Below are positions 5,252 to 32,970 of a stretch of DNA of 37,684 nt, in pieces; within the stretch, counting starts at the first letter, position 1, and every line of letters begins with the position of its first letter. The stretch comes from a virus, in the IMG/VR virus record IMGVR_UViG_3300009705_000045, positions 1-37,684 of that record, one strand, 5' to 3'. The translations under genes and the position numbers were made by a program. The notes under the pieces are model-generated. The model saw only the letters and a list, made by a program, of their open reading frames with translations, was not told where the DNA came from and made no database searches.

Positions 5252-7875
5252 GCCACTTCTCCAAACGTGTTACCAATCGCAAACGCCAACGCCGAAGCCT
5301 GATCCTGGCCCTGCGTAGAGTTCTGCCACTCATTCGTGCCACGCACAAACGTACGCGCCTCACCCATCGTCATCGGACGGGCCACATCGCCACCAGCACC
5401 AGCAGGAATAAACTCGATCACCTCAGCGAACTCGCGCATCATGTCCACATCGCGATCCAACATCTGCTCAATCTCATACTTGTACGGGGCAAAATATTCG
5501 CCAGGAGTGATCTGCAAAGTGTTGATCGCATGATCCAACGACGGGAACCGGGCGGTTGCCTGATTCTTGAAATACTGTGTCATCCACGCCACGTCGCGGT
5601 CGCCAACGTAAATGTCTTCCGCCCACCCGGCAGCGTCAGAGTCGCTGACTCCAACGTAATAGTCGGCCCCCAACTTTTTGATCTCGTCGCGGGCCTCACC
5701 AAACGAAGACAACGCGCTGCCAGAAGCAGCGAACTGCGACTCCGCAACCATCATCCCGCGAATGTAATCAACGTCCCTTTCTTTGCCTTCGCGGGCGATC
5801 TGTTCGGCCATGCGTCGGGCACGTTCGGGGTCCAAATCGAACGCTTCGGCGTATTCTTCGCCTCCCAAGAATTGGGCTTCGTTGCTGAGGTTGTCGAGAA
5901 TCGGTTCCAAATACTCTTGCTTGCCCGGTTCCGACAGTTCCCCAAACTGTGCGTCGAACTGGCGTGCCCGTGTGTCGGTCGTCTGCCACCATTCCGTCTT
6001 TTGCAGAACGCCTTTGACCCGATCCAACGCGACGATGCCTTTTTCAGCGATCACGTCCAACACGTTTTTGACAGTAGATGCAGTCGGGTCGTCGGCGGCG
6101 ACAATGGTGCCGTTAGCGGTGAGTCCGACATTGAGTTGCGATTCGTTTTGTTGGAGGAAGAACGCAAATCCGCCGAATTGTTCTTGTAGGAGTGCGTGTA
6201 CTTCGTTGCGGTCTGCCGCTGTTTTCTCTGCCGCGGTCAGGCGAGGCGCACCGGTGTAGGGCGTTGTGGTGTCGAGTGTTGTCGGGGTCCCGTTGAGGGA
6301 CGCTAGATAATTCAGCACGTCCTCATCAGAAGGAGCTAAAGCAGCGGTTTCCGACTCGGCTTCCAACTCGGCTTTCAACTCGTCCATCTGTTGAGCAAGC
6401 TGCTGCCCAGCAGTCACCGATCGGATGCCCTCCTTGCGTTCCTCAAGACGAGCAATGTCGGCCTGGATTTCGGCAACTCCACGAACCCTTGATGCCGCGT
6501 CTGGCGTAACCGACGTAACAGAACCGGCCTGACCAGCACGACCAGAACCAGCAACCGGACGCGGACCCGAATACTCGGCACCCGCCGCTTCAGAAGAAAA
6601 AGTTTTAACGAAGTGATCAGCTACATCACGATCAACCTGTTTCGTAACCTTGGGAGGTTCCAAAGCAATAAACTCAGAATATCCGGTAGACCCCGAACCG
6701 CTTTCCTCCATCTCTTCCAAAGCGGGCATAAACCGTTCTGGTTCCTCAGACTCCAACGCATCAGTCCAGCCGTCAATCTGCGAAAACCCGCGCGCTATCT
6801 TTTCGCCGTTAAGCCCGCCAGGAACCAGACCCGCTTCAATCTTAAATTTTTGTGCGGCGGCATTAAACTCGTTGAACGTATCCGAGTCAATAACTTGCCC
6901 TAACCCAGGAAAATCACTTGGCGCATCCAATGAAAGCATGTCGTTAGCGTCGAGCAGGTCCATCAACTCTTGGAACCCGTATGTCCCGATAATCTCGTTG
7001 CCGTTTGCTAACGCCGAAACGCTGGTAGTCCCCGTTACCAAATCGTACAAGTTAACGTTTGGGTCGAACTTTCGCAACCCAGCCATCACAATATGGATAG
7101 CTTGCTTAGCTTCTTTGCCCGTAGCTTCACGTACACCATTGGCGGTGTTGATGGCGTCAAGGAACTTCCGGTTGTCTATCAACACCGCCCTTGACGATGC
7201 AAGACGTTCTATTTCTGCTTCTAAAATCTCTTCGTAAGTTCCTGGGCTATCCGAGCCGCTCTGCCCTACCTTGGCCCTGGCCCTAGTCCGTCTGTCCTCT
7301 AACGATTCTTGAGGAACAACCGGGGCAACAGAAGTGTCAGCGGAACCGGGACGGTTACGGAACTGACCAGAACGAGTATCGGTAGGTTTCGCATCTTCAG
7401 CAGCAGCTATGCGCGCCTCGCGTTGGGCCGCGCGCGACGCAGCCCCAATTTCGGCAGCCTCCCGAAGCTCACTTTGCGAAGGCCCCGAAGCAGCAGCTAT
7501 GCGCGCCTCGCGTTGGGCCGCTACTGCCGCAGCCCCAATTTCGGCAGCCTCCCGAAGCTGGCTCGGGAAAGGCACCCCAGCATTCTGGGATGGCGGTTCG
7601 TTACGGGCCGCATCTTCCGCAAGAATACTGTCAATAACGTCCTGCGGCAGCGTAGCCGGTGGCTTCGTACGAGCCTCTGAAACCGCAGGCGGTACCAGAT
7701 TCCCCCACCTGCGTGTAGCGGTAGCCACCAAATCGCCCAAAGCCGTAGCCGACACCCCAGCTTCAACAGCATAAGCCAGTATCTCCCCGGCTTCTTCCGC
7801 GCTTTTTGCAAGGTCGAGCGCCTCGGCGGCACCCGCCAACACCACCGCCACCAGTTCATCCAGCCATTCAGCCAT
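5248..7875 (-). CDS. Large internal virion protein, 875 aa
   Basis: This is an Ala/Glu-rich, mostly helical protein. Residues about 105-165 contain two near-identical 30-residue blocks (LREAAEIGAAAVAAQREARI and LREAAEIGAASRAAQREARI). Residues about 555-640 hold GGFAFFLQQNESQL, then GVLQKTEWWQTTDTRARQFD, a 'TEWW..T...R' block I recognise from actinophage virion proteins. The C-terminus contains FPSLDHAINTLQITPGEYF, related to the next gene downstream. It has no signal peptide or transmembrane segment. It belongs to a run of four very large internal virion genes, with an ATGA overlap at its 3' end. An ejection or inner-core role is likely but inferred. Confidence 0.65.
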   Translation of the reverse strand: MAEWLDELVAVVLAGAAEALDLAKSAEEAGEILAYAVEAGVSATALGDLVATATRRWGNLVPPAVSEARTKPPATLPQDVIDSILAEDAARNEPPSQNAGVPFPSQLREAAEIGAAAVAAQREARIAAASGPSQSELREAAEIGAASRAAQREARIAAAEDAKPTDTRSGQFRNRPGSADTSVAPVVPQESLEDRRTRARAKVGQSGSDSPGTYEEILEAEIERLASSRAVLIDNRKFLDAINTANGVREATGKEAKQAIHIVMAGLRKFDPNVNLYDLVTGTTSVSALANGNEIIGTYGFQELMDLLDANDMLSLDAPSDFPGLGQVIDSDTFNEFNAAAQKFKIEAGLVPGGLNGEKIARGFSQIDGWTDALESEEPERFMPALEEMEESGSGSTGYSEFIALEPPKVTKQVDRDVADHFVKTFSSEAAGAEYSGPRPVAGSGRAGQAGSVTSVTPDAASRVRGVAEIQADIARLEERKEGIRSVTAGQQLAQQMDELKAELEAESETAALAPSDEDVLNYLASLNGTPTTLDTTTPYTGAPRLTAAEKTAADRNEVHALLQEQFGGFAFFLQQNESQLNVGLTANGTIVAADDPTASTVKNVLDVIAEKGIVALDRVKGVLQKTEWWQTTDTRARQFDAQFGELSEPGKQEYLEPILDNLSNEAQFLGGEEYAEAFDLDPERARRMAEQIAREGKERDVDYIRGMMVAESQFAASGSALSSFGEARDEIKKLGADYYVGVSDSDAAGWAEDIYVGDRDVAWMTQYFKNQATARFPSLDHAINTLQITPGEYFAPYKYEIEQMLDRDVDMMREFAEVIEFIPAGAGGDVARPMTMGEARTFVRGTNEWQNSTQGQDQASALAFAIGNTFGEVA
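7399..7559 (-). repeat. 71-bp tandem duplication (two copies, period 90)
   Basis: Positions 7399-7469 and 7489-7559 match at 66 of 71 bases. The five differences are clustered at 7432-7437 and its counterpart. The period of 90 bp keeps frame and gives the 30-residue helical repeat in the 875-residue virion protein. Such high nucleotide identity, even at third positions, suggests a recent duplication. Confidence 0.85.
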
Positions 7876-16398: not shown

Positions 16399-18408
16399 TC
16401 AATCAAGCATCCACGAAGGCCGCGATTGACGCGGAGATTCGATAGAGGGAGTGTAGAGCCTTTCGAGGTTATGTTCTAGGAACCATTGTGCCATAACACA
16501 ATCGTCGGTTCGTGAACCGGTACCTTCTGGGTTCCATTTTGTGACTTCGTTGATGAGTAGGAGCGAATGGATGCGGGCAGCGGTGCCCTGTTTCCCAGGC
16601 AACCGGATACGGCCATGCCTATATAAAGGCGCAAGCATCTGCACCCCATACTTCGGGTCGCCCTTGTTTCGCGAAGTGTAATGCGGGACCAACTCAACGC
16701 CGCGTTTCGCTGACCAACGTTTGAAATGGTCGTATTGAAGAATGAACTTCTGCGCTGCGTTGACCTCCACAATCCAATGCGTGATCGGCCTACCCATGTC
16801 CGCCGATTTCTGCCACCACTCCTCAGCGATGCCCGTAAACGTTTGTTCACTGTGGTTCCAATCAAGGAACGTCGGCGCGTCCATCTTCTGACGGTACGAC
16901 TCCAGCAGGTAACGATATTCGTCGGACCCAGCAGCAGCCCAACATTGAAGCGCCCAAAATTGTGACGGGGACGGGTCCGCCGTCGCAATAATCATCGGGT
17001 CAGAATCCATGTGTGGGGGAAGCTCCCACAAGTCGCGGTCATTGTCCCAACAGCCGACATGCTCCACCCCGTCCTTGCCGGTGCCGCCCGAGATCCACAA
17101 CGGATCAACAAGCATCTGTGCCGGGTCGTCGTCTTCTTGCTGATACAAGATTTCGTAACGGTCGGGGGTTTGTGATTTGATGTGGCGCAACTTCTTCCAC
17201 GGCAACCGGGACGGATACAGCAGGCATCCTTCGGGCCAGGCGGGTGCGCCGCGCCGGTGGGTGCCGGTACACAGGTCGTCGTAGTGCGCCTTGTATTTGA
17301 GTGTGTGGTACTTGTTTTCTTGACCCGGCACGTCGGAGGTGGCGGCGGAAGAGGGTGTTTCACTGGGCAAAGGAGTTGCCTGTCCCGACTTCTCGTCGGA
17401 CACCATGCCCTCTTCCGCAGCGCCTTCTTCGACGAGGGGGTCGTCGAGGTCATCATCGTCTATCGGGGCTACCTTATCCATAGCGTAGCGGTAGATGTCG
17501 TCGGAGGCCATTCGTTGACCGTTGAGGACAAGTAGTCCGCCCGGTTCGAGACGCGTTTCGGCTACTTCGTCCCACCAGCGGTAAAGGTCGGAGCGCGAGT
17601 CGGAGTTTCGCATCTTGCGCGGGTCCCACACGTCGTCCCAGATGACGAGATCGAACCGTCCACCGAGGAAACCGGAATCTGATCCGAACGCGGACCATGT
17701 TGGTTCCTTTTGCGACAGCGGTTGGTCGTCGGGTTGCATGACGGTGAACGCTGCGACGGTCCAGATTTCTTTGGCGTCCGGTTTGAACTGCCCGAAGTCG
17801 TGCTGCATCGTCTGAATGCCGTCCACGGCCAACCCGAGTTTCTCGTCGTTGAGTTCGGCACGCACCACATGTTCACGCTCAAACTCGGCACGCAAACGTC
17901 GCGTGTACCATTCGGACGTTTTTTGGGTGTGTGACCCGATGAGTCCGCGAATGGCCCGGTTGCGGCATGTCGCGAACGCAGGCAACACCTTCGCAAAAAA
18001 TGTGGATTTGCCGGAGCCGGGTGGCGCGTTGATGCATATGTATTCTTCGTCGGGCGAGTCGAGTAGGGCGAGGATGGTTTCGGTTGCTTCGATTTGCCAC
18101 GGCATAAGAATGATGCCGAAGTAGCGGAGTGCGAAGATTTCGATTGAGTCGTGTGCGTCTTGGACTTCTTGGGGGAGGACGCTGTAAGGGGGAATGTTGG
18201 ATACGCCGACGAGGGCGACGAGTTCGACGGCTTTGTTGTAGTTCTGGGTGCGTGTCCCGCTTTCGGCGCGTCGCGCTGATTGGTCGGAGATGCCTGAGTC
18301 CATTGCGGAGCGGTAGATTGATCCGCCGTTGCGTCGGACCATCAAATATTGGACCCATTGTTCTACGGGTGTGGAGCGCCCGCGGCCTGTGCGTTCTGGT
18401 TCAGGCAT
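16399..18408 (-). CDS. Terminase large subunit (packaging ATPase/nuclease)
   Basis: The 669-residue motor protein has Walker A at about 128-136 (NAPPGSGKS) and Walker B at about 253-260 (DLVIWDDV). The RNase-H-like nuclease carries candidate acidic residues at D478 (IIATADPS), E548 (HWIVEVN) and D635/D636 (RTDDCVMAQ). Two extras stand out. The N-terminal 60 residues contain a helix-turn-helix-like segment (SIYRSAMDSGISDQSARRAE). An acidic then Ser/Pro-rich linker of about 50 residues (316-365) separates ATPase and nuclease. No clear small subunit is seen, so the N-terminal HTH could supply DNA recognition. Its start overlaps the upstream gene by 8 nt. Confidence 0.9.
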   Translation of the reverse strand: MPEPERTGRGRSTPVEQWVQYLMVRRNGGSIYRSAMDSGISDQSARRAESGTRTQNYNKAVELVALVGVSNIPPYSVLPQEVQDAHDSIEIFALRYFGIILMPWQIEATETILALLDSPDEEYICINAPPGSGKSTFFAKVLPAFATCRNRAIRGLIGSHTQKTSEWYTRRLRAEFEREHVVRAELNDEKLGLAVDGIQTMQHDFGQFKPDAKEIWTVAAFTVMQPDDQPLSQKEPTWSAFGSDSGFLGGRFDLVIWDDVWDPRKMRNSDSRSDLYRWWDEVAETRLEPGGLLVLNGQRMASDDIYRYAMDKVAPIDDDDLDDPLVEEGAAEEGMVSDEKSGQATPLPSETPSSAATSDVPGQENKYHTLKYKAHYDDLCTGTHRRGAPAWPEGCLLYPSRLPWKKLRHIKSQTPDRYEILYQQEDDDPAQMLVDPLWISGGTGKDGVEHVGCWDNDRDLWELPPHMDSDPMIIATADPSPSQFWALQCWAAAGSDEYRYLLESYRQKMDAPTFLDWNHSEQTFTGIAEEWWQKSADMGRPITHWIVEVNAAQKFILQYDHFKRWSAKRGVELVPHYTSRNKGDPKYGVQMLAPLYRHGRIRLPGKQGTAARIHSLLLINEVTKWNPEGTGSRTDDCVMAQWFLEHNLERLYTPSIESPRQSRPSWMLD

Positions 18409-18643
18409 AGTCCTCTTCGAGTGACTCCAACATGTCGTCTAGGTGCCAGACGGCTACAACATCGTCGGCTTCGGAGATGTGCCTGAGCATCGAAGATGCG
18501 ATGTTTAACGCTTCTCGGAGTACGTCCCACACTTCGGAGCAGTCCAACGCTTGCATAACCTCGTAGCCGATTTTGATATCAGTGTCTGAGTGTCCGGTTC
18601 GCATGAGTCCCAACACGATCCGTGCCGCTTCTAACTGGGTCAT
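18401..18643 (-). CDS. 80-residue protein directly upstream of terL
   Basis: The ATG at 18643 forms an ATGA overlap with the membrane-protein gene upstream. The stop overlaps the terL start by 8 nt. The product is helical and acidic (MTQLEAARIVLGLMRTGHSD, ending LEEDYA). Position and size would allow a small-terminase or terminase-accessory role, but no HTH is evident, so this is only a guess. The frame continues upstream without a stop, but that extension only shadows the two genes before it. Confidence 0.6.
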   Translation of the reverse strand: MTQLEAARIVLGLMRTGHSDTDIKIGYEVMQALDCSEVWDVLREALNIASSMLRHISEADDVVAVWHLDDMLESLEEDYA

Positions 18644-18843
18644 AGTCCGGTGCGTTCTGGTTTTAGCTGACGCCATTTGATTTCTTCGTAGACGGCGTAG
18701 GGCCAGATGACAAAAAACAATACTAAAGCCCACATTTCCCACATGACGTGGCGTACACGGCATGAGCCTTCCGATGACCGTATCCAAACAGCGCAGCCGA
18801 AACCGATCAAGAAGTACGCAATAAAAAACCCGGCAAGGATCAT
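18640..18843 (-). CDS. Small two-TM membrane protein
   Basis: The 67-residue product has two hydrophobic helices, about residues 2-21 (ILAGFFIAYFLIGFGCAVWI) and 34-51 (MWEMWALVLFFVIWPYAV), joined by a short polar loop with Cys. It ends in a basic tail (KWRQLKPERTGL). ATGA overlaps link it to genes on both sides. The size and topology are like a class II holin, but it sits beside terminase, far from the lysis genes, so another membrane role is as likely. Confidence 0.6.
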   Translation of the reverse strand: MILAGFFIAYFLIGFGCAVWIRSSEGSCRVRHVMWEMWALVLFFVIWPYAVYEEIKWRQLKPERTGL

Positions 18844-19118
18844 CGTTTCGTGGATCGGCCGTTAGCGCCCTGACGGCCACGATTCGACTTCGGTGCTTCG
18901 CGTGTGTACCCGCCGCCACGCGTATGCGACATGTCGGCACCGCCCTTACCCGCAACACCGGCCTTACGTCGAGCTTTGCCCAAATCGGAACGGTACTTCT
19001 TGCGCGCCGGAGTCGCATGATACGCAGTGTCGTACGCCTTCTTCTTCTTCGCCGCGGCAGGGTTCGCCGCATAATACTTCGCAGATTTGCCAGGGTTCTT
19101 TGACTTCGACGGGGCCAT
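18840..19118 (-). CDS. Highly basic small protein, probable nucleic-acid binding
   Basis: The 92-residue, Lys/Arg-rich product begins MAPSKSKNPGKSAKYYAANP, continues AAAKKKKAYDTAYHATPARK and KYRSDLGKARRKAGVAGKGG, and ends SNRGRQGANGRSTKR. Runs of the type 'KYY..NP.A..KK..YD..YH.TP.R..YR..L...RR..G..GKGG.D.SH' are familiar from small basic phage proteins, some labelled HNH-like or DNA-binding. The distribution of basic residues fits DNA or RNA binding in packaging. It has no Cys and no complete nuclease motif. Confidence 0.65.
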   Translation of the reverse strand: MAPSKSKNPGKSAKYYAANPAAAKKKKAYDTAYHATPARKKYRSDLGKARRKAGVAGKGGADMSHTRGGGYTREAPKSNRGRQGANGRSTKR

Positions 19119-19121
19119 GTC

Positions 19122-19262
19122 TTATTCCTTCGGCCAACCGAAACGGCGCTCAAGTGTCCGCTGGTTATGTCCAGAAGCGGCAGCGAAAGCGCGAGCAATC
19201 GTTTCCCAATCAGTTTTGGATGCCTTCTTCTTCTTCGCAGCCTTCTCAACAGGTACAGCCAT
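19122..19262 (-). CDS. 46-residue basic protein, first gene of the terminase operon
   Basis: The sequence from the ATG at 19262 encodes MAVPVEKAAKKKKASKTDWE, then TIARAFAAASGHNQRTLERR and FGWPKE, then TAA. An AAAGGA ribosome-binding site lies 7 nt upstream. The Lys-rich N-terminus followed by an HTH-like pair of helices (IARAFAAASGHNQRTLERRF) suggests DNA binding. Sitting just downstream of the GGGTAC box cluster and first in the packaging operon, it is a candidate regulator or packaging-recognition protein, but it is far shorter than a normal small terminase. Confidence 0.6.
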   Translation of the reverse strand: MAVPVEKAAKKKKASKTDWETIARAFAAASGHNQRTLERRFGWPKE

Positions 19263-19289
19263 ATTTGGTCCTTTGATGGTTCGTGATTC

Positions 19290-19394
19290 ACTCTAGACCG
19301 AAACGGGGCCATGTACCCATTAGTACCCATGTTCCGCATGACTCTTACGTGGGCGCATCAGCCGGCAATACGGAGGATGGGTACATGTGGGTAC
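19290..19394 (-). promoter_or_regulatory. GGGTAC box cluster and possible promoter before the packaging operon
   Basis: Four copies of GGGTAC occur as two pairs. GTACCC lies at 19313-19318 and 19323-19328; GGGTAC lies at 19379-19384 and 19389-19394. Copies within a pair are 10 bp apart, about one helical turn, and the pairs face each other. Read leftward, a TAGAGT -10-like hexamer (19295-19290) lies 17 nt from the box at 19318-19313, so the boxes occupy the -35 position. This suggests an activator-dependent promoter, or alternatively a terminase recognition (pac-like) site. Confidence 0.45.
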
Positions 19395-19841
19395 AACTCC
19401 CGCGTCATTACAACAGTGCCGCCATGCACTGCGTCTGATACAGTCCAACAAGCACTGCCGCCCCCCACAGGCGACGAACCATGTGGGCCACGACTAACCA
19501 TCGTGAGAGTCGCCCGTCAGAAGGGCCTCCGACCGCTGCAACAAACCGTGTAGGGAACAGCCCCAGACAACTGGGATACACAACCGACCGCAGCGGCAGC
19601 AGCGACCAGGACAAACCGACTGCAACCACGACCGAGGTCAACCGGCGGAGGGACCCAGGGACAACAAGACCAAACCCCACGCGGGGAGACACCAACCCAC
19701 CTCCCGAGGCAAACAACCCACACACAGATAACAGGATTCTTAAAGACGGGGGTACCTCGGCACATCCCCTTGGTCTCGGACAAAGACAATAGAGCTTCGC
19801 GCCCCCCTCACCACTATCGCCCCCTCCCCAATCGCATCGCC

Positions 19842-19879
19842 ACCCCACCGGTCCCCAAAAACCCCACCGGTCCCCAAAA
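19842..19879 (+). repeat. Exact 19-bp tandem repeat
   Basis: ACCCCACCGGTCCCCAAAA is present twice with no gap (19842-19860 and 19861-19879). Each unit contains the palindrome ACCGGT. It lies in the gene-free region upstream of the packaging operon, so it is a candidate protein-binding site. Confidence 0.85.
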
Positions 19880-19912
19880 ACATGGGATGACATCAAAAAC
19901 CCTGACGTATCT

Positions 19913-19953
19913 GTACAAGTAGCAGACAAATACCGTACAAGTACCGTACAAGT
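19913..19953 (+). repeat. Three GTACAAGT boxes in 11-bp phase
   Basis: GTACAAGT occurs at 19913-19920, 19935-19942 and 19946-19953, with start-to-start spacings of 22 and 11 bp. The last two sit in an exact 11-bp tandem repeat, TACCGTACAAG (19931-19941 and 19942-19952). Equal helical phasing suggests cooperative protein binding. The GTAC core is shared with the GGGTAC boxes 0.5 kb away. Confidence 0.7.
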
Positions 19954-20002
19954 CGAGACTAGGTAGCTACAAAGCGTGTTGGTTAGGTGGCGGTATGGCT
20001 TC

Positions 20003-20025
20003 CACTATCAAATTTTTTCACTATC
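20003..20025 (+). repeat. CACTATC direct repeat around a T-rich spacer
   Basis: CACTATC at 20003-20009 and 20019-20025 flank AAATTTTTT. The spacing is 16 bp. The A/T run is unusual for this GC-rich genome and would melt or bend easily. Possible regulatory site; no direct evidence. Confidence 0.4.
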
Positions 20026-20111
20026 GTTTTGTGTGGTGGCCTGGTCGTGTCTGCGTGGTTGCAGCTATCGCACCGGCGGAGGGATGCCGGTTTGATTTGG
20101 GGATGGACGCG

Positions 20112-22748: not shown

Positions 22749-22776
22749 GGGTTTTCCTCTTTCGTAGGTTGCCCCC

Positions 22777-22805
22777 AGTGTATCCACAACCCCCGAGCTC
22801 GTCAA
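22777..22805 (-). promoter_or_regulatory. Predicted leftward early promoter
   Basis: Read leftward, TTGACG (22805-22800), a 17-nt spacer and TACACT (22782-22777) make a near-consensus sigma-70 promoter. The spacer contains TTGTGGATA, a DnaA-box-like sequence in reverse. The repeated (G/C)TTAC-N6-GTAA(C/G) sites begin 24 bp upstream. Transcription would enter the accessory operon beginning at 22748. Confidence 0.7.
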
Positions 22806-22828
22806 GCGATTCCACAAAATCTCGACAG

Positions 22829-22916
22829 GTTACTAGGAAGTAAGTTACCAACGCGTGCAGCGGTTATCACCACACAGATCGTGAGGTTACCGACCAGTAA
22901 CTTACCCACCAGTAAC
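22829..22916. repeat. Three inverted operator-like sites and a 15-bp tandem repeat
   Basis: Sites of the form (G/C)TTAC-N6-GTAA(C/G) lie at 22829-22844 (GTTAC TAGGAA GTAAG), 22886-22901 (GTTAC CGACCA GTAAC) and 22901-22916 (CTTAC CCACCA GTAAC). The last two share a base and lie in a 15-bp tandem, ACCAGTAACTTA(C/G)CC (22893-22907 and 22908-22922, 14 of 15 identical). The same 16-nt form recurs at 4137-4152 in the scaffold/capsid promoter. These look like binding sites of one phage regulator, or iterons of a replication initiator. Confidence 0.7.
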
Positions 22917-22956
22917 TTAGCCAACGGCTAAGACACAAAGCCCCCGCCAAGATCAC

Positions 22957-22997
22957 TATCGCTATACCAATGGGCGTTCGGAAAATATCGCTATACC
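22957..22997 (+). repeat. Exact 12-bp direct repeat in the origin-like region
   Basis: TATCGCTATACC occurs at 22957-22968 and 22986-22997, 29 bp apart. The A/T-richer stretch between them (GGAAAATATCG) stands out in this GC-rich genome. It lies between the operator-like repeats and the DnaA boxes. Possible iteron or promoter element for the rightward operon. Confidence 0.6.
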
Positions 22998-23010
22998 TGT
23001 TTGGGGTGGG

Positions 23011-23054
23011 TTGTCCACACTTTTTGCGACGATCTCCACAGTTTGTGTGGACAG
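23011..23054 (+). promoter_or_regulatory. Paired DnaA boxes: candidate replication origin
   Basis: TTGTCCACA (23011-23019) is the preferred DnaA box of Streptomyces-type actinobacteria. TGTGGACAG (23046-23054) is CTGTCCACA on the other strand, also within that consensus. Together they form a 9-bp inverted repeat (TGTCCACAC / GTGTGGACA) with a 24-bp spacer. A looser box, ATCTCCACA, lies between them. A DnaA-domain-like gene starts about 270 bp downstream. Together with the repeats to the left, the divergent region from 22.75 to 23.1 kb is the best origin candidate. Confidence 0.6.
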
Positions 23055-23110
23055 GGTGGGGATGGGGGTGTACGGTTCAAATATTCAACTACGAAAGGGA
23101 TGTTTTTCTG

Positions 23111-23329
23111 ATGTCAAAGTTTGAGGATGCCGAGGACCAGTTCTGTGAGGAGTTGTGGGCGGGGTCGGTGGATGAACTGCACGAAAGTCTGTCTGGCGGC
23201 GCGGTGAGTGTGTTGTGCAAGATGATCGAGGCTCACGCTTACGATCTGGCTTGCCAGGCGCAGGTGGACGCTGCTGAGGCCGGTGCTGAGGCTCGGGCCG
23301 AGGCTACGCGGGAAGAGTGGCACCGATGA
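23111..23329 (+). CDS. First gene of the rightward operon, acidic helical, 72 aa
   Basis: The product starts MSKFEDAEDQFCEELWAGSV and ends in an Ala/Glu-rich helix (AAEAGAEARAEATREEWHR). GAAAGGGA lies 10 nt upstream of this ATG. The frame is open to 22970, but that extension would cover the DnaA boxes and reads as non-protein-like sequence. The stop overlaps the start of the DnaA-like gene (ATGA), which suggests joint production. No family recognised; a partner of the DnaA-domain protein is possible. Confidence 0.65.
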   Translation: MSKFEDAEDQFCEELWAGSVDELHESLSGGAVSVLCKMIEAHAYDLACQAQVDAAEAGAEARAEATREEWHR

Positions 23330-23823
23330 GTGGCGAGTCGCGGCCGAAGCCGTTGGGGAACAATTCGATTAGCCCTGAACGTGTGCAATCGTTTGTGGAT
23401 GCGGTGGAGGCGGTGACGGGTAGTTCTGTGGAGGCGTTTCCTTTCGGGTCGAAGGCGGCGGTTTTGGTTGCGGCGCGGCGTGTGTTGAATGTTGCGATGC
23501 GCGAGGATGGTCAGTCGTATCCGCAGATTGGTCGCATGTTTGACCGGGATCACACGACGATTATGCATTCGGTGAAGACGGCAACGGAAGAGGAACGCAT
23601 GTTGGCGCGTCGCGTGTTGCGTATTGTGAACAAGAAGACTGTTGTGTCTGCAAATGCTTACAACGTGGAGGGGACGTGTAAGGATTGTGGCGAAAGTGTC
23701 GGCATGGTCGATGCGGGCGATGTGGATGGTGTGGCTGCGGTGTTGTGGCACGATTTTGTGACCGAGCAGCGGTACACGCATGAAGGGCCGGTTGTTGACC
23801 TGTTTTGTCGAGGTTGCCGATGA
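23326..23823 (+). CDS. DnaA domain-IV-like DNA-binding protein with a C-terminal zinc ribbon
   Basis: The 165-residue product contains, at about residues 15-102, a region closely patterned on the DNA-binding domain IV of bacterial DnaA. It has a helix with ARRVLNVAM, then SYPQIGRMFDRDHTTIMHSV, where DRDHTT (73-78) corresponds to the DnaA signature GRDHTT. There is no AAA+ ATPase, so it can bind DnaA boxes but cannot itself load helicase. The C-terminus has CxxC pairs at 118/121 and 161/164, a zinc ribbon. It starts at the ATG at 23326. It lies next to two DnaA boxes, suggesting an origin-binding, host-recruiting or DnaA-competing role. Confidence 0.8.
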   Translation: MSGESRPKPLGNNSISPERVQSFVDAVEAVTGSSVEAFPFGSKAAVLVAARRVLNVAMREDGQSYPQIGRMFDRDHTTIMHSVKTATEEERMLARRVLRIVNKKTVVSANAYNVEGTCKDCGESVGMVDAGDVDGVAAVLWHDFVTEQRYTHEGPVVDLFCRGCR

Positions 23824-24257: not shown

Positions 24258-24452
24258 ATGCCTACCGAAGAGACGGTCGTTGTGGCGGCGTCCGGCGCTG
24301 CGACTGCTTCGTTGGAGTCGTTGCTCCGCGATTACAAGGCGTTGAAGTTGGCGCTGGCCGACTGCTACCACTGGATGCCCTCCAGCGACAGATCCGAGTT
24401 GCAACCGTCAACCCGCCGAACCGTCGCCGGGCTACTCGAACTGGACGACTAA
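24258..24452 (+). CDS. Hypothetical protein, 64 aa
   Basis: The product starts MPTEETVVVAASGAATASLE, has a helical core (LLRDYKALKLALADCYHWMP) and ends RRTVAGLLELDD. It begins 1 nt after the previous stop, and its TAA overlaps the next ATG (TAATG). Small and acidic, no motif. It belongs to the coupled rightward early operon. Confidence 0.6.
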   Translation: MPTEETVVVAASGAATASLESLLRDYKALKLALADCYHWMPSSDRSELQPSTRRTVAGLLELDD

Positions 24453-24787
24453 TGAACCTCTTCGGGGATTCCACTATCGCACCATCCTGTCGCCACGGCC
24501 GACCCGCAGGCGACTGCGTGTTCTGCAAAACAAGGGCGACCGATCCTGAAACGTCGAGGGCGGCGGCGCATCAGACGGGGTTCGCAAAGACTCACAAGGC
24601 ACGCATTTTGGCGGCGCTGAATCTGGGCGGCCCGCAGACTCAGACGGAGTTGGCGGTAACAGTCGATTTGTTGCCGCATCAGGTGAATAAGAGGCTCAAC
24701 GATTTGCACCGGGACGAATTGGCGCATCCGTTGGCCGAGACTCGTGAGGGCCATGCTGGCCGCCAGGAACGTCTCTGGTCTACGTGA
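24452..24787 (+). CDS. Winged-HTH-like DNA-binding protein, 111 aa
   Basis: The N-terminus holds three cysteines (SCRHG, CVFC), then the familiar block DPETSRAAA. A winged-HTH pattern follows at about residues 46-90 (KARILAALNLGGPQTQTELA, then VTVDLLPHQVNKRLNDLHRD). The end (GRQERLWST) fits the wing of this type, seen in small phage proteins of replication operons. It probably binds DNA as a dimer. With the ribbon-helix-helix protein at 26982, it is a candidate reader of the (G/C)TTAC-N6-GTAA(C/G) sites. Confidence 0.7.
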   Translation: MNLFGDSTIAPSCRHGRPAGDCVFCKTRATDPETSRAAAHQTGFAKTHKARILAALNLGGPQTQTELAVTVDLLPHQVNKRLNDLHRDELAHPLAETREGHAGRQERLWST

Positions 24788-24877: not shown

Positions 24878-25741
24878 ATGACTGAAACAACACTTATCCA
24901 AGACGCTTGGGATCACCATTCCCAAAGTCTTCGAGAAGAAGAAGGCCCCAAACCCACTGCGGCGGGAACGCTCATGCGGGTGTCCGACACCGGATCGTGC
25001 CTACGGCAACGAGGATTTGCTGCGGCGGGCATCCCGGAATGCGAAGAAATTGACGGTCCAACCCTGCTGGCGTTCCAGTTGGGCACCTCAATCCACGAAT
25101 CGTTGCAGGCCGCTGTAGCCCGTGTGTGGCCCGACGCGGAGATTGAGACCCCGATTGACCTGAGAAGCACCGGCGTGTCGCTGTCCGGCCACACAGACGG
25201 TGTGATCGACGTTGACGGCGGCATTGTGCTGGAGTTCAAGACAGTGGGCAGTTGGGCGGCAAAGAATGTGTGGCTAAACGGCCCGAAACGTGAGCATGTG
25301 GCGCAAGCAGCGTTGTACGCAATGGGCGTCGAAGCCGAAGCGGTGCTCATGGTGTATGTCGCTAAAGAAAAAGCGTGGGCGTCGAAAGAGTTGCCGTCTG
25401 GGATTGCACCCGGCGACATGCGCGAATGGCTGCTGCCGATGCATCAAGCCGATTACAGGTTGGGCGACCTCAGCCCCTACGAACTGGCGCAGCAAGAGTT
25501 GGAGTGGTTCGCTGAAGTCGAACAATCCGTGAAAGAAGGGTTCCTGCCCCGAGCGCAGGCACCCAACGACGACGGCGACTTGGAGTTTGTCGAATACCCC
25601 GGCCCGTACGGGGTCCAGTCGAAGGGCGGCTATTGGGGTTGCCGATATTGCCGCCATAACCAGACGTGCGCCCAGGTTGGGCCTGCGGCTGTCGAGTTAG
25701 AAGTTGCCATCAAAATGAGGGAGTCGTTCAATGACCAATGA
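24878..25741 (+). CDS. Cas4/RecB-like PD-(D/E)XK exonuclease with Fe-S cysteines
   Basis: The 287-residue nuclease has GTSIHE (H73), SGHTDGVID (D107), LEFKT (E119, K121) and QAALYAMG (Q143), the ordered motifs of RecB/Cas4 nucleases. Cysteines at 41, 255, 258 and 264 (SCLRQ; CRYC.....C) match the 4Fe-4S arrangement of Cas4 and AddB. It would process DNA ends to give single strands for the annealing protein that follows. No cas1 or CRISPR array is present, so a recombination rather than spacer-acquisition role is preferred. It overlaps the next gene by 11 nt. Confidence 0.85.
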   Translation: MTETTLIQDAWDHHSQSLREEEGPKPTAAGTLMRVSDTGSCLRQRGFAAAGIPECEEIDGPTLLAFQLGTSIHESLQAAVARVWPDAEIETPIDLRSTGVSLSGHTDGVIDVDGGIVLEFKTVGSWAAKNVWLNGPKREHVAQAALYAMGVEAEAVLMVYVAKEKAWASKELPSGIAPGDMREWLLPMHQADYRLGDLSPYELAQQELEWFAEVEQSVKEGFLPRAQAPNDDGDLEFVEYPGPYGVQSKGGYWGCRYCRHNQTCAQVGPAAVELEVAIKMRESFNDQ

Positions 25742-26171
25742 AAACCGCACAGACATGCAGGCACTCGCTAAGCGTGCGCCTGCGAAGTACATCCAGAAGA
25801 AGCCGGGAGGTTTCGAGGCCGACTACATTTCACATTCTGAGATTCAGCAGATGTTGCTTGCGAAACTGTCGGTTCCTCCGTCGCAACGCATCGTGCAAGT
25901 GATTTACGGCGGCGACAACGGCACAACCGTTCACGGCGTGATCCTTGAGGTCACGTACGTGATCGACGAAGCGACTGTGATTATTCAGGAGGCGGGCGAT
26001 TGCGACCGTCCACAGGCGAACAATGGAGCGAACCTGAAAAATGCGGTGTCGTCGGCTGTCAATCGTTGCGCGATGCGCATCGGCTTGGGGCTAGAGCTTT
26101 GGAGCCAACAGTTCTACGTGTTGGATAAGGCGTTTCCGATTGCCGAGAAAGACGACGGAGGGGAAGCCTGA
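25731..26171 (+). CDS. ERF/Rad52-like single-strand annealing protein
   Basis: The 146-residue product starts MTNENRTDMQALAKRAPAKY. It has a beta-rich centre (QRIVQVIYGGDNGTTVHGVI, then LEVTYVIDEATVIIQEAG) and the segment NLKNAVSSAVNRCAMRIGLG followed by LELW. That segment matches the 'A...A.KRA....GLG..LW' helix of ERF/Rad52-like annealing proteins. It lies between a RecB-type nuclease and SSB, the classic phage recombination trio. The family call is by pattern and context, as these proteins diverge greatly. A GGGAG ribosome-binding site sits 5 nt upstream of the ATG. Confidence 0.7.
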   Translation: MTNENRTDMQALAKRAPAKYIQKKPGGFEADYISHSEIQQMLLAKLSVPPSQRIVQVIYGGDNGTTVHGVILEVTYVIDEATVIIQEAGDCDRPQANNGANLKNAVSSAVNRCAMRIGLGLELWSQQFYVLDKAFPIAEKDDGGEA

Positions 26172-26629
26172 TGTCGCTTGAAGCGGGATACGCGTATGTG
26201 ATGGGCAACCTCACCCGCGACTGGGAAACGAAAGAGATCGACACCAAGAACGGGCCACGCACTCTTTACACGTGCGGACTCGCTTACCAGCCGAAGAAGG
26301 AAGACGAGACGCAGTGGGTGAACCTGACGATCTGGCCCGATTTTGATAACGGGTCCACCGATCAGGGGCGGGCGGTGTCGGACGGGTCGCACAAGGGTGT
26401 AGCGGTAATTGCCCGCGGGTTGCTTGACCAGCGCGAGTACAGCAAAGATGGCGTCACGAAGTCTGCTTGGGAGTTGAAGGTGTGGCAGATCGCGAAAGTT
26501 TTACGTGCCCCGAAGGCTGCCGGTGGCGATCATGTCCAGCAGGCCCGTCAGGCAAACGTTCCGCAGTCGCGTACGTCGCGTGTCGAGAACGAAGCGCCAC
26601 GGTACGAGATCGACGAGGAGCCTTTCTGA
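26171..26629 (+). CDS. ssb: Single-stranded DNA-binding protein
   Basis: The 152-residue product shows an OB-fold pattern: YAYVMGNLTRDWETKEI, LYTCGLAYQPKKEDETQWVN, LTIWPDF, then KGVAVIARGLLDQREYSKDG. A Gln/Arg-rich disordered region leads to an acidic tip ending DEEPF, like the DDDIPF tip that docks host repair proteins in bacterial SSB. It coats single-stranded DNA and probably recruits host replication enzymes, fitting a genome without its own polymerase. It starts immediately after the annealing gene. Confidence 0.85.
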   Translation: MSLEAGYAYVMGNLTRDWETKEIDTKNGPRTLYTCGLAYQPKKEDETQWVNLTIWPDFDNGSTDQGRAVSDGSHKGVAVIARGLLDQREYSKDGVTKSAWELKVWQIAKVLRAPKAAGGDHVQQARQANVPQSRTSRVENEAPRYEIDEEPF

Positions 26630-28693: not shown

Positions 28694-29140
28694 GTGGCGT
28701 ATAGCAAAGAACCGACGGTTACGAAGAAGACTCGGGGGCGTGCGGATCGGGAGTTCTCGAAGTGGATTCGGCGCGGTGGAGTGTGTGAGCGTTGCGGCAA
28801 ACTTAACCATGAGCCGAAGACGACTCGTGCGGAGAAGGATGCGGCGGGTACGGCACAGTTGCAGTGCGCCCACATTTCGTCGAGGCGCAGGCTTGTGTCG
28901 CGTTGGGAAGAATTGAATGCGTTGTGTTTCTGTTACGCCTGCCACGGGTGGATGGAGTCGTACCCGGCGCACTTTGCGCTGTGGCTGCAAGAGAACCGGA
29001 TCGGCTATTGGCAGCGGCAGATCGAACTTTACGAAGATTTTAAGGGTCCGCAGCCGAGGTGTACCGAGAAGTTCGTGGCCGAAGTTGCCGAGCGTTACAA
29101 GGCGCTCAACAAATTAGACGAGCCGAATGTTCCCAAGTAG
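28694..29140 (+). CDS. NinG/HNH-like endonuclease, 148 aa
   Basis: The GTG at 28694 with GGAGGGG 11 nt upstream is preferred; the longer frame upstream is low-complexity. The product has a basic N-terminus (YSKEPTVTKKTRGRADREFS), CERCGK, then QCAHISSRRRLVSRWEELNA, then CFCYACHGWMESYPAHFALW. Two CxxC pairs and an H..R...W..LNA..LC..CH core are typical of NinG-like recombination nucleases and HNH proteins. It may cut recombination intermediates, completing the nuclease/annealase/SSB set. It converges with the metallophosphoesterase gene, overlapping it by 27 nt. Confidence 0.75.
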   Translation: MAYSKEPTVTKKTRGRADREFSKWIRRGGVCERCGKLNHEPKTTRAEKDAAGTAQLQCAHISSRRRLVSRWEELNALCFCYACHGWMESYPAHFALWLQENRIGYWQRQIELYEDFKGPQPRCTEKFVAEVAERYKALNKLDEPNVPK

Positions 29141-29752
29141 CCCTCCGGCGACATCTAAAGTAATCGACCCTGAACGGCGGTCACCTTTTCCGGCACGTTC
29201 CGCATACGACGTAGATCCGGCGTCTTCGGTTGGCATTTGTACCCATGTGCGCGGCCCGAGCCACTCCACCCGCAACGAATGGTAATGGCCTGACAAGAGC
29301 AGCGATGCTCCGCCTGCGGGACGGTGGTTGCCTGCCTGCTTATCCCACCAAACCTCAGCTTTGCCTTGACCGGACAGTTGGTGCCCGTGGATGACAGCGA
29401 CCGGTAGCCCGGCGACATCAACAGTCACGGCAAGATCCTCGCCGGGGACCGCCCACCGGACATGCTCATAGGCTTCGATCCCTTCGCATGACCATCTACA
29501 ATCGTCTATAGCGGCCACGTCAACGTTGTCGCCCGGCAGCGAGTCGCGTTTCGTGACCCGGTTCTCGCCGTGGTTCCCAGGAACAGCGACGACGAGCACG
29601 TCGGGGACGAGCGACGCAGCCCGGTCGATGATCCTCATCGCTGCTTCACGGACCACGGCGCGCTGCTCTCGGTCGTTCATTTCGGCCGAGTAGATCTGGG
29701 CGATGCCGTAATGCATCCCGGTGCATCCTTCAACGAGGTCGCCGCCGAACAC
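29114..29752 (-). CDS. Metallophosphoesterase, C-terminal part (after an in-frame amber codon)
   Basis: This part carries most of the calcineurin-like core: FGGDLVEG (metal-binding D), VPGNHGEN (the GNH[DE] motif), VIHGHQ and SGHYHS, in the usual order. The frame is continuous with 29789-30271 apart from one TAG at 29791-29789, and the residues between (WRAAGKPGHITVV) are conserved-looking. The ATG at 29752 lies inside the catalytic core, so it is not a natural start. If made by readthrough, the whole is about 385 residues. It may be a phosphodiesterase or nuclease, as in actinophage homologues that I recall. Confidence 0.7.
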   Translation of the reverse strand: MFGGDLVEGCTGMHYGIAQIYSAEMNDREQRAVVREAAMRIIDRAASLVPDVLVVAVPGNHGENRVTKRDSLPGDNVDVAAIDDCRWSCEGIEAYEHVRWAVPGEDLAVTVDVAGLPVAVIHGHQLSGQGKAEVWWDKQAGNHRPAGGASLLLSGHYHSLRVEWLGPRTWVQMPTEDAGSTSYAERAGKGDRRSGSITLDVAGGLLGNIRLV

Positions 29753-29788
29753 GACAGTGATGTGGCCGGGCTTGCCAGCGGCCCGCCA

Positions 29789-30271
29789 CTACTTCTCGAA
29801 GCGGTCGGGCAACGCGCCGAGCGTGTCGAGCACCACGTCAATCGTGTTCTCCTTGCCAATTTGCCAGTCGCTTGTAGCCCAAACTTGGCCTTCAGAGTTG
29901 ACTGAGACGGCCTTAGAGCGCTTACGGCGTCTCAGATGAGCAATCAGGTCTTGGATGTCTGCGGAGGGCTTAGAGCGCCTTACAGCCGTGATGCGGTAAT
30001 ACCAGCACCACTCGTCAGATCCGGCTTTCTGCTGCCACTTCCTAACCTGCAACGACCCCGGCTGAATTGACCACTCGGCAGGGTCCAGACGCATCTCGAC
30101 AAGGATCGTTTCCTCATCGGGATCAATCGCGGCGGAAGTAGACAGGCCCGTGTACGTTGCCGTTCCCGATTGGTGGTCGAGAATGTGGCCGGGTTCCCAC
30201 CCCGGCGGCGGTTTCGCTGGCCCGTTGTCATGCGCGGTTAGGCGCGTGAAATCTTCAGCGGCTGACGACAT
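29789..30271 (-). CDS. Metallophosphoesterase, N-terminal part ending at an amber codon
   Basis: From the ATG at 30271 (MSSAAEDFTRLTAHDNGPAK) this 160-residue frame holds an N-terminal domain with KWQQKAGSDEWCWYYRITAV. It then enters the first metal motif, VWATSDWQIGK, and stops at TAG after ALPDRFEK. The family usually has D-x-(H/Q) here, followed by a helix and then GD..EG. The rest of the enzyme follows directly in the same frame. One base change (CAG to TAG) would explain the break. Its start overlaps the HTH-like gene upstream by 17 nt. Confidence 0.65.
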   Translation of the reverse strand: MSSAAEDFTRLTAHDNGPAKPPPGWEPGHILDHQSGTATYTGLSTSAAIDPDEETILVEMRLDPAEWSIQPGSLQVRKWQQKAGSDEWCWYYRITAVRRSKPSADIQDLIAHLRRRKRSKAVSVNSEGQVWATSDWQIGKENTIDVVLDTLGALPDRFEK

Positions 30272-30491
30272 CAGCCCACCAGTTCTCAACACCCATCTTG
30301 CCGATGTCGTAGCCGAGCGACTGCAAGGCCCCCATAATCTGGGCGCGTGGAGTCACCGAGTCACTTAGTGCTACCTCGATCGCAGCCAAAAGGTTCGGAT
30401 CATTCTGGTCAATCTCGGATCGAATCGAGCGCCACGATTGTCGGCGTTTCGGCTCTATGAACGACTGGAACTGGTCGAGACCACTGTCCAT
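30255..30491 (-). CDS. Small HTH-like protein, 78 aa
   Basis: The product starts MDSGLDQFQSFIEPKRRQSW and continues RSIRSEIDQNDPNLLAAIEV and ALSDSVTPRAQIMGALQSLG, ending YDIGKMGVENWWADVVSR. The pattern '...AL.D...P...I..AL..LGYDI....V..W' resembles small HTH proteins found just before metallophosphoesterase genes in actinophages. It probably binds DNA. The 39 nt encoding its C-terminus recur in imperfect form at 32984-33022, on the far side of the lysis genes. Confidence 0.6.
   Translation of the reverse strand: MDSGLDQFQSFIEPKRRQSWRSIRSEIDQNDPNLLAAIEVALSDSVTPRAQIMGALQSLGYDIGKMGVENWWADVVSR
30280..30318 (-). repeat. 39-bp near-repeat, copy A (inside the HTH-like gene)
   Basis: This segment matches 32984-33022 at 33 of 39 bases in the same orientation. 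Here it encodes LGYDIGKMGVEN near the end of the HTH-like protein. The two copies flank the endolysin, holin, membrane and Thr/Pro-rich genes. Confidence 0.75.
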
Positions 30492-31408: not shown

Positions 31409-31588
31409 CTACCCCGGATCGTCCCCTCTATCCAATGCCACGCCAATCATGTGCATTATGAGAGCGATGCACGTTACGGTTGCTGCCATCTTAAAAACGG
31501 ATGATCCGAACGGCAGGGTGATCAGGATGTATGCGGACCCGGCAAGGGTCCAGGCGATAATGAACAGTTCTCGAATGTAGCGCCTCAT
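31409..31588 (-). CDS. Small two-TM membrane protein in the lysis cassette, 59 aa
   Basis: The ATG at 31588 overlaps the stop of the Thr/Pro-rich gene (ATGA). The product starts MRRYIRELFIIAWTLAGSAY and has two hydrophobic helices (about 8-27, and 34-51 with MAATVTCIALIMHMIGVAL). It ends with an acidic tail (DRGDDPG). Its position right before the r1t-like holin makes it a candidate second holin, antiholin or pinholin partner. The stop is TAG, showing that TAG is a normal stop in this phage. Confidence 0.65.
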   Translation of the reverse strand: MRRYIRELFIIAWTLAGSAYILITLPFGSSVFKMAATVTCIALIMHMIGVALDRGDDPG

Positions 31589-32970
31589 CGGCGGTTCCTT
31601 CGTCTTGTCGGGCCGGAAGAGCCGGACGGCCCAGACGGTCCCGAAGCGGATGTTGTGGGTGCAGCAGGGCGAGGCAATGCAAGCGCAGCGGTAGATGCAG
31701 CGGTTACGGCGATCACAGTCCGGCGTTCGCCCTGAGTAATTTCTGAATCGGTCGTGGTGTAGTCGTCGAGCGCGCCGGAAAACAGGTCCTCCTCGACGGC
31801 TTCCTCAAACACGGCTTTAACCTCGTCGGGGGCGTCGTTGATTGCGGCGGCGACGGCCGTCAACTGCTGAGCCGGTAGATCGTCGAACGTTTCTTGCGCG
31901 ACCATCTCAACAACGTCTTCAACCTTGATGTCTTCAGGCTCAACAGCGATTACTTCAATGATCGCCTCGGCCAGATCCTCGTCGGTTATAGCGGCAACGA
32001 TGGCGATTGCTTCGATGAGAAGCGGCGGAACGGTGGTGGTTGTGGTGGTTGGTGGCGGAACGCTGGTCGTTGTGGTCGCCGGTGGTGGAGCGGCGGTCGT
32101 TGTGGTGGTTGTGGTTGGCGGGACAGTAGTCGTTGTTGTGGTTGTTGTGGTTGTGGTGGGGGGGACGGTGGTTGTCGTAGTTGTTGGTGGGGCGGTCGTG
32201 GTGGTCGGTGCGACGGTTGTCGTCGTGGTGGGTGGGGCAGTGGTCGTGGTAGTAGAAGTTGTCGTCGGTGGAGCCGTGGTGGTGGTCGTGGTCGTCGGCG
32301 GGGCGGTTGTTGTCGGTGGAACGGTGGTGGTCGTAGTCGTAGTCGTGGTCGGTGCGACGGTGGTCGTTGTTATCGTCGGCGGAACAATGGTGGTCGGTGG
32401 GACGGTTGTTGTTATCACCGGCGGAACACTGGTGGTTGTCGTGGTGGTGGGTGCGGCGGTCGTCGTGGTGGTCGGCGCAGCAGTCGTCGTCGTGCTTGTG
32501 GTGGTGGTCGTGGGCGGTGCCGGAGTCCAACTGTTCTCGGCAAACGTCACCGTCCAAGTCCCCTCAGGCACAGCGGCGTTCTGCTGAGTCCGCTGATACG
32601 TGTCGAACCGGAGCGTGTACGTCCCGACCGGCTCCGCCACATACAGCCGAGACGAGTAGCAGTCCCCAACGTCAGCGTGCGCCCCGTCGTCGTCCTCAAA
32701 ATCAACGTTCCCGGACTCGTCCAGAAGGAACAGGTACGGGTCGGGTGTGACAGCGAAGTCGAGCGGGCAGTCGATACCTGTCGAGACGGTGACGTCCAGA
32801 ACGTCGCCCTCGACGAACGTCACCGTCCAATCGACATATTGCTGATCTGGTCCGACCGTGACAGTCAACGCATCGGACCCGGCGGCCTGGATCGGCCCGA
32901 CAAAACCAATAAGATAAGTGAGAGCTAAGAGAAACCGGCTAGTTCGTCGGAGCCATTTCTTCAAGTGCAT
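31585..32970 (-). CDS. Secreted mucin-like Thr/Pro-rich protein, 461 aa
   Basis: A basic N-terminus and hydrophobic core (MHLKKWLRRTSRFLLALTYL) with PIQAAG near residue 30 form a signal peptide. Residues about 30-145 are beta-rich and resemble a bacterial pre-peptidase C-terminal-like domain (VGTYTLRFDTYQRTQQN). Residues about 150-313 are a low-complexity run of Thr with PP, V and A (TTTTTVPPTTT types). A helical acidic domain follows (about 318-400), then a Ser/Gly/Pro-rich basic tail (RRRNRR). Similar Thr-rich stalks occur in secreted proteins of Acidimicrobiia. It may act at the cell envelope during lysis or be a surface or virion spacer. Unusual for a phage. Confidence 0.7.
   Translation of the reverse strand: MHLKKWLRRTSRFLLALTYLIGFVGPIQAAGSDALTVTVGPDQQYVDWTVTFVEGDVLDVTVSTGIDCPLDFAVTPDPYLFLLDESGNVDFEDDDGAHADVGDCYSSRLYVAEPVGTYTLRFDTYQRTQQNAAVPEGTWTVTFAENSWTPAPPTTTTTSTTTTAAPTTTTTAAPTTTTTTSVPPVITTTVPPTTIVPPTITTTTVAPTTTTTTTTTVPPTTTAPPTTTTTTTAPPTTTSTTTTTAPPTTTTTVAPTTTTAPPTTTTTTVPPTTTTTTTTTTTVPPTTTTTTTAAPPPATTTTSVPPPTTTTTTVPPLLIEAIAIVAAITDEDLAEAIIEVIAVEPEDIKVEDVVEMVAQETFDDLPAQQLTAVAAAINDAPDEVKAVFEEAVEEDLFSGALDDYTTTDSEITQGERRTVIAVTAASTAALALPRPAAPTTSASGPSGPSGSSGPTRRRNRR

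Follow-up and report, generated by a model that had tools for sequence, protein, structure and literature searches.

The DNA-binding domain IV of bacterial DnaA (Bac_DnaA_C, PF08299) is represented by structures with DnaA box DNA from M. tuberculosis (DnaA DNA-binding domain, 3pvp) and E. coli (domain IV, 1j1v). Domain IV alone suffices for sequence-specific binding of double-stranded DNA (PMC5835720). Upstream boxes allow DnaA to repress its own promoter, and Streptomyces lividans and mycobacteria are also reported to show DnaA binding at the dnaA promoter (PMC8203912). Outside DnaA, the domain is carried at the C-terminus of RAYT/TIRYT subclass 2.1 proteins, as a fusion with a HuH nuclease; the repeats that flank RAYTs are unlike DnaA boxes (PMC6006769). 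Stand-alone copies (DnaA-C proteins) occur in phages (for example IMG/VR loci L002-L008 and L143-L162; phrog_27829). Scans with the protein described below and with its homolog from a related phage (G007) detected 31 loci, two of them on contigs already included in the comparison. The proteins of the 29 further loci, which include two near-copies of the G007 protein and some near-copies of each other, are 73 to 214 aa long and consist of domain IV without an ATPase. No exact DnaA box was found in up to 600 bp upstream at these 29 loci, and upstream of 19 DnaA-C genes from unrelated phages the box core TCCACA was seen three times vs. 4.8 expected (no enrichment). ATPase-less DnaA-C proteins are common in phages; unlike these other loci, the one described here has a cluster of DnaA-type sites, and this cluster is the unusual part.

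The DnaA-C gene in question is found in an uncultured phage whose host is probably an actinobacterium (IMG/VR record IMGVR_UViG_3300009705_000045). The whole record of 37,684 nt was analyzed and is called the window here. IMG/VR lists the record as linear. The contig ends (1-645 and 36953-37684, minus strand) lie in frame within one tail-fiber gene, and relatives carry the homologs of the major capsid protein, fiber B, fiber A, 36226, 35841 and 34939 genes contiguously, as closure predicts. The record is probably a circle cut inside the tail-fiber gene. Because the ends join in frame and the gene order of the relatives agrees, the genome is taken as essentially complete, so that gene absences can be judged. 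A DNA-level search of phage records gave no match to this genome, and when species genomes were scanned with the terminase, in search of a host or a prophage, no relative was found. Scans for RNA families and tRNAs were negative. On the minus strand, a metallophosphoesterase (phrog_284, 29114-30292) looks split into a C-terminal part (29114-29752) and a probable N-terminal part in another frame (29789-30292), which may reflect a frameshift, an error or two genes. The 461-aa protein encoded at 31585-32970 (minus strand) has a signal-like N-terminus and long Thr/Pro repeats and is likely a low-complexity surface or secreted protein.

DnaA-C (23326-23823, plus strand) is located near the head of a rightward early operon. 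The first gene of this operon (23111-23329) encodes a 72-aa protein of no family and overlaps the start of DnaA-C. Further downstream, all on the plus strand, are a winged-helix protein (phrog_1123, 24452-24787) directly upstream of the exonuclease gene, a PD-(D/E)XK (Cas4/RecB-like) exonuclease (24878-25741; PF12705; phrog_1706, E = 2.6e-24), a single-strand annealing protein (25731-26171; phrog_3290) and a single-stranded DNA-binding protein (SSB, 26171-26629; phrog_44, weak match to PF00436). The preliminary description reported no replisome gene in the window. This was borne out by profile searches, which gave no match to DnaB_C, DNA_pol_A or the phrog_270 initiator in this genome; other polymerase and primase families were checked only at the level of Pfam and PHROG matches among the predicted genes. 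By tblastn with the proteins of relatives, no lambda-O-like initiator or helicase loader was detected in the genome. The possibility that two ORFs (18401-19339 and 19408-19929) are hidden replication genes was discarded, as their codon usage resembles that of non-coding DNA. The Beephvirinae (Streptomyces phage Kumquat and others) have a related major capsid protein (~40%), terminase (~26%) and Cas4-type exonuclease, but they are annotated with a DnaB-like helicase and a primase, and this phage has neither.

The DnaA-C protein has 165 aa residues. It matches Bac_DnaA_C over residues 24-84 with a Pfam score of 39.2 bits (E = 7e-10; 40.8 bits in a separate genome search), above the curated gathering score of 31.5. 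The DnaA signature PQIGRMFDRDHTT is present, with RDHTT at residues 74-78. AlphaFold2 predicts helices at residues 17-31, 45-60, 65-71, 76-84 and 88-110, in a confident helical domain (pLDDT 87-98 in the block of residues 41-100). The top Foldseek matches of this model are 3pvp and 1j1v (probability 1.00, target TM 0.73-0.74, best E = 4e-3). With a profile built from ten phage homologs, DnaA domain IV structures again rank first (3pvp, E = 1.8e-13; 1j1v, E = 1.7e-12). The recognition helix RDHTT is unchanged and aligns with GRDHTT of M. tuberculosis DnaA. The assignment to DnaA domain IV, made originally from the signature, is thus upheld by profile and predicted fold, and so is the statement that the ATPase domain is missing: by Pfam the protein is domain IV alone, with no AAA+ ATPase (domain III). 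Domain I (oligomerization and helicase recruitment) gave no match either, and only ~20 residues precede domain IV. The phage protein shares the HMM, fold and recognition helix of bacterial DnaA domain IV and differs from DnaA by lacking domains I-III and by having a C-terminal tail. Cysteines 118, 121, 161 and 164 in this tail fit a CxxC..CxxC pattern with a predicted beta hairpin at residues 145-160 (pLDDT ~45-58). None of the Pfam zinc families was matched. A zinc ribbon is plausible from the cysteine spacing, and it is kept as a suggestion since the tail is poorly modeled.

The divergent early control region (22764-23110, GC content 0.50) is located between the leftward and rightward gene blocks and contains DnaA-type sites and other repeats. 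The boxes that had been described ~270 bp upstream of DnaA-C are real. TTGTCCACA (23011-23019, plus strand) is the sole exact TTRTCCACA box in the genome, and CTGTCCACA (23046-23054, minus strand) is its inverted partner; they lie ~307 and ~272 bp, respectively, from the DnaA-C ATG (23326). A third site, GTATCCACA (22780-22788, plus strand), is DnaA-box-like with one mismatch to TTRTCCACA. In addition, a TCCACA core is found at 22811-22816 (plus strand) inside GATTCCACA, and ATCTCCACA (23032-23040, plus strand) is a weak box-like site. Three sites with at most one mismatch from TTRTCCACA were counted in 22764-23110 vs. 0.20 in dinucleotide shuffles (P = 0.0015), and TCCACA, the most over-represented hexamer, was seen five times vs. 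0.27 expected (P = 9e-6); both P values assume that the region was chosen in advance. In a genome-wide check, three clustered box-like sites appeared in one of 60 whole-genome shuffles. TCCACA is densest in this region; five sites are not reached in any 350-bp stretch elsewhere. The site cluster upstream of DnaA-C is non-random and above chance.

Two other repeat types share the control region. Three palindromic GTTACT-N5-GTAA sites (22829-22916; plus strand at 22829, minus strand at 22887 and 22902) are found nowhere else in the genome. Two TATCGCTATACC repeats (22957-22997, plus strand) are 29 nt apart, and their position matches that of ATCGCTNNACC repeats in the relatives G006, G007 and G042. 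One weak sigma-70-like promoter candidate was found in the control region and no other. CACTATCG repeats at 19812, 20019, 20844 and 22954 (also in G007 and G042) are mostly in a single orientation and concentrate between the terminase and the early operon; ~1 is expected per genome. The stretch 19280-20110 is largely non-coding and contains GTACAAGTA repeats as well as a tandem repeat of 19 bp (19842-19879); it is another candidate regulatory or origin region.

A terminase search retrieved 80 loci, mostly 58 to 74% identical. DnaA-C is found above the cut-off in eight of 50 related records; a further, divergent copy in G010 scores 19.9 bits. In the relatives the gene precedes the exonuclease, annealing protein and SSB genes in the rightward early operon, the distant G050 being an exception. 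A WhiB-type gene follows DnaA-C in seven relatives, and the two look like a regulatory gene pair. DnaB_C and DNA_pol_A are absent from all 46 related records searched, most of them without DnaA-C. Since relatives lack DnaB and PolA with or without DnaA-C, the missing replisome is a clade trait, and the compensating role of DnaA-C implied by the preliminary description is not supported. A phrog_270-type protein is found in five relatives, each also with DnaA-C. In four of them (G007, G012, G031 and G042) DnaA-C coexists with this separate O-like initiator, which differs from DnaA-C in having an HTH_36 DNA-binding domain; it belongs to the same early operon and its gene is downstream of SSB. The gene contains iteron-like GGGGAGA-type repeats (three in G007, G012 and G042, two in G031). 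The lambda O gene has an internal origin, and the repeats in the phrog_270 genes recall it. Also downstream of SSB in these four relatives is a ~130-aa protein with a weak match to helicase loader phrog_2289. Given the DnaA-C-negative relatives and the co-occurrence with phrog_270, life without a replisome does not require DnaA-C, and in genomes with both genes DnaA-C is not the only candidate initiator.

This phage, G006, G007 and G042 share a layout upstream of DnaA-C, with paired palindromes, the ATCGCTNNACC repeats and the first gene in this order. The palindromes are GTTACT-N5-GTAA in this phage and G042 and LexA-type CGAAC-N4-GTTCG in G006, G007 and G042. In G042 (locus L114, 8013-8040) and in the control regions of G007 and G006, boxes of the LexA type (CGAACATATGTTCG and the like; two or three each) lie upstream of the early operon and suggest SOS-linked control in these relatives. 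GTTACT-N5-GTAA also forms a 24-nt-period array in the DnaA-C-negative locus L047 (G033, 6013-6150), where a parS-like GTTTCACGTGGAAC comes after four GTTACTGAACGGTA(A/G)-type units. The relatives do not conserve full DnaA boxes next to DnaA-C. The TCCACA core is densest in the control region of the G007 genome (three sites), ties for densest in that of G042 (two sites), and lies within the paired repeats of the control region in both. No TCCACA is found in the G006 control region despite the presence of DnaA-C, and G006, G016, G010 and G047 show no clear TCCACA pattern in their own control regions. Across this phage and 28 relatives the largest TCCACA cluster is the five found here; the next highest is three. 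In 19 DnaA-C-negative relatives, where 7 kb ahead of the exonuclease gene were examined, the best cluster was one (n = 13), two (n = 5) or three (n = 1, a distant relative). These sequence patterns support binding of the phage protein to its own control region in this phage and are suggestive in the nearest relatives.

In the most likely reading, which we hold at even odds, the DnaA-C protein is a domain-IV regulator that acts on the early control region through the TCCACA sites. The stand-alone domain would be made early in infection and would bind the clustered DnaA-box-type sites in 22764-23110. Site occupancy would set or shut off the early promoters, a form of autoregulation, and host DnaA may bind these sites alongside the phage protein or compete for them. 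The host replisome would copy the phage DNA, while recombination would be helped by the exonuclease, annealing protein and SSB of the phage. This reading is favored by the domain and its fold, by the TCCACA enrichment of the control region, by the LexA-type boxes of G006, G007 and G042, which are features of a transcriptional control region, by the WhiB-type gene, and by the fact that the dedicated initiator of the relatives is a different gene. Against it are the unconserved full boxes, the lack of TCCACA in the G006 control region and of TCCACA enrichment in unrelated phages, and the single weak promoter; the iteron-like palindromes beside the boxes would equally suit an origin. Ranking second after the regulator reading, and doubtful, is the proposal that the control region is a replication origin marked by DnaA-C alone or with host DnaA, in which an unrecognized phage protein on GTTACT-N5-GTAA would load the host helicase. 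Boxes, repeats and lower GC co-occur in 22764-23110, as they do in iteron plasmid origins. This phage has no phrog_270 initiator, unlike G007, G012, G031 and G042, and a PHROG family named DnaA-like replication initiation protein (phrog_27829) is weakly matched by the G012 homolog, with no match by the protein of this phage in the PHROG scan. The cumulative GC skew is also lowest at 22-23 kb, where gene direction switches. This minimum was rejected as origin evidence after a test with four-fold sites. At these sites, leftward genes have a coding-strand skew of -0.066 in the 4-22.6 kb part and of +0.043 in the 29-37.7 and 0-4 kb parts, and rightward genes one of +0.208; the top-strand value left of 22.8 kb is therefore ~ +0.07, whereas an origin there would predict a negative value. 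Since the four-fold-site skew keeps its sign at 22.8 kb, the minimum follows gene orientation.

The preliminary description had the phage mark its own origin with a truncated DnaA and recruit, or compete with, host DnaA; the origin marking is not supported. There is no skew flip, in relatives DnaA-C is accompanied by a separate initiator gene that itself contains repeats, full boxes are not conserved, and DnaA-C-negative relatives exist, among which L047 retains a similar palindrome array. The protein is also without the AAA+ domain needed for DNA opening. Recruitment has no domain I or III to rest on, and host DnaA could bind the boxes directly. An arrangement in which DnaA has been reduced to its DNA-binding domain and works with host DnaA on shared boxes and the palindrome array, as a joint origin and early-promoter switch with replication wholly by the host replisome, is unlikely in our estimate. 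Quite unlikely is an ordinary HTH protein with another target, the boxes being used solely by host DnaA or incidental. The relatives do vary at the recognition-helix Asp (RHHTT, KHHTT, REHSS) and lack full boxes, and RAYT proteins carry the same domain with flanking repeats unlike DnaA boxes (PMC6006769), but RDHTT is unchanged here and the adjacent site cluster is far from random. We regard as improbable a host-takeover factor that occupies the DnaA boxes of host oriC and blocks host initiation. The intact recognition helix and the early-operon position make such competition possible; however, the data give no pointer to host sites, a phage dependent on the host replisome would gain little, and no terminase relative was found in species genomes.

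Although phage genomes often encode ATPase-less DnaA-C proteins, our literature search on phage-encoded DnaA domain IV found nothing directly relevant and no tested function. The comparison delineates a clade of uncultured phages without recognizable DnaB-type helicase or PolA-type polymerase genes. Of the genomes compared here, that of this phage pairs an ATPase-less DnaA-C protein most clearly with clustered sites that it is likely to bind. A single fragment of 350 bp would therefore serve to test binding, autoregulation and origin function.
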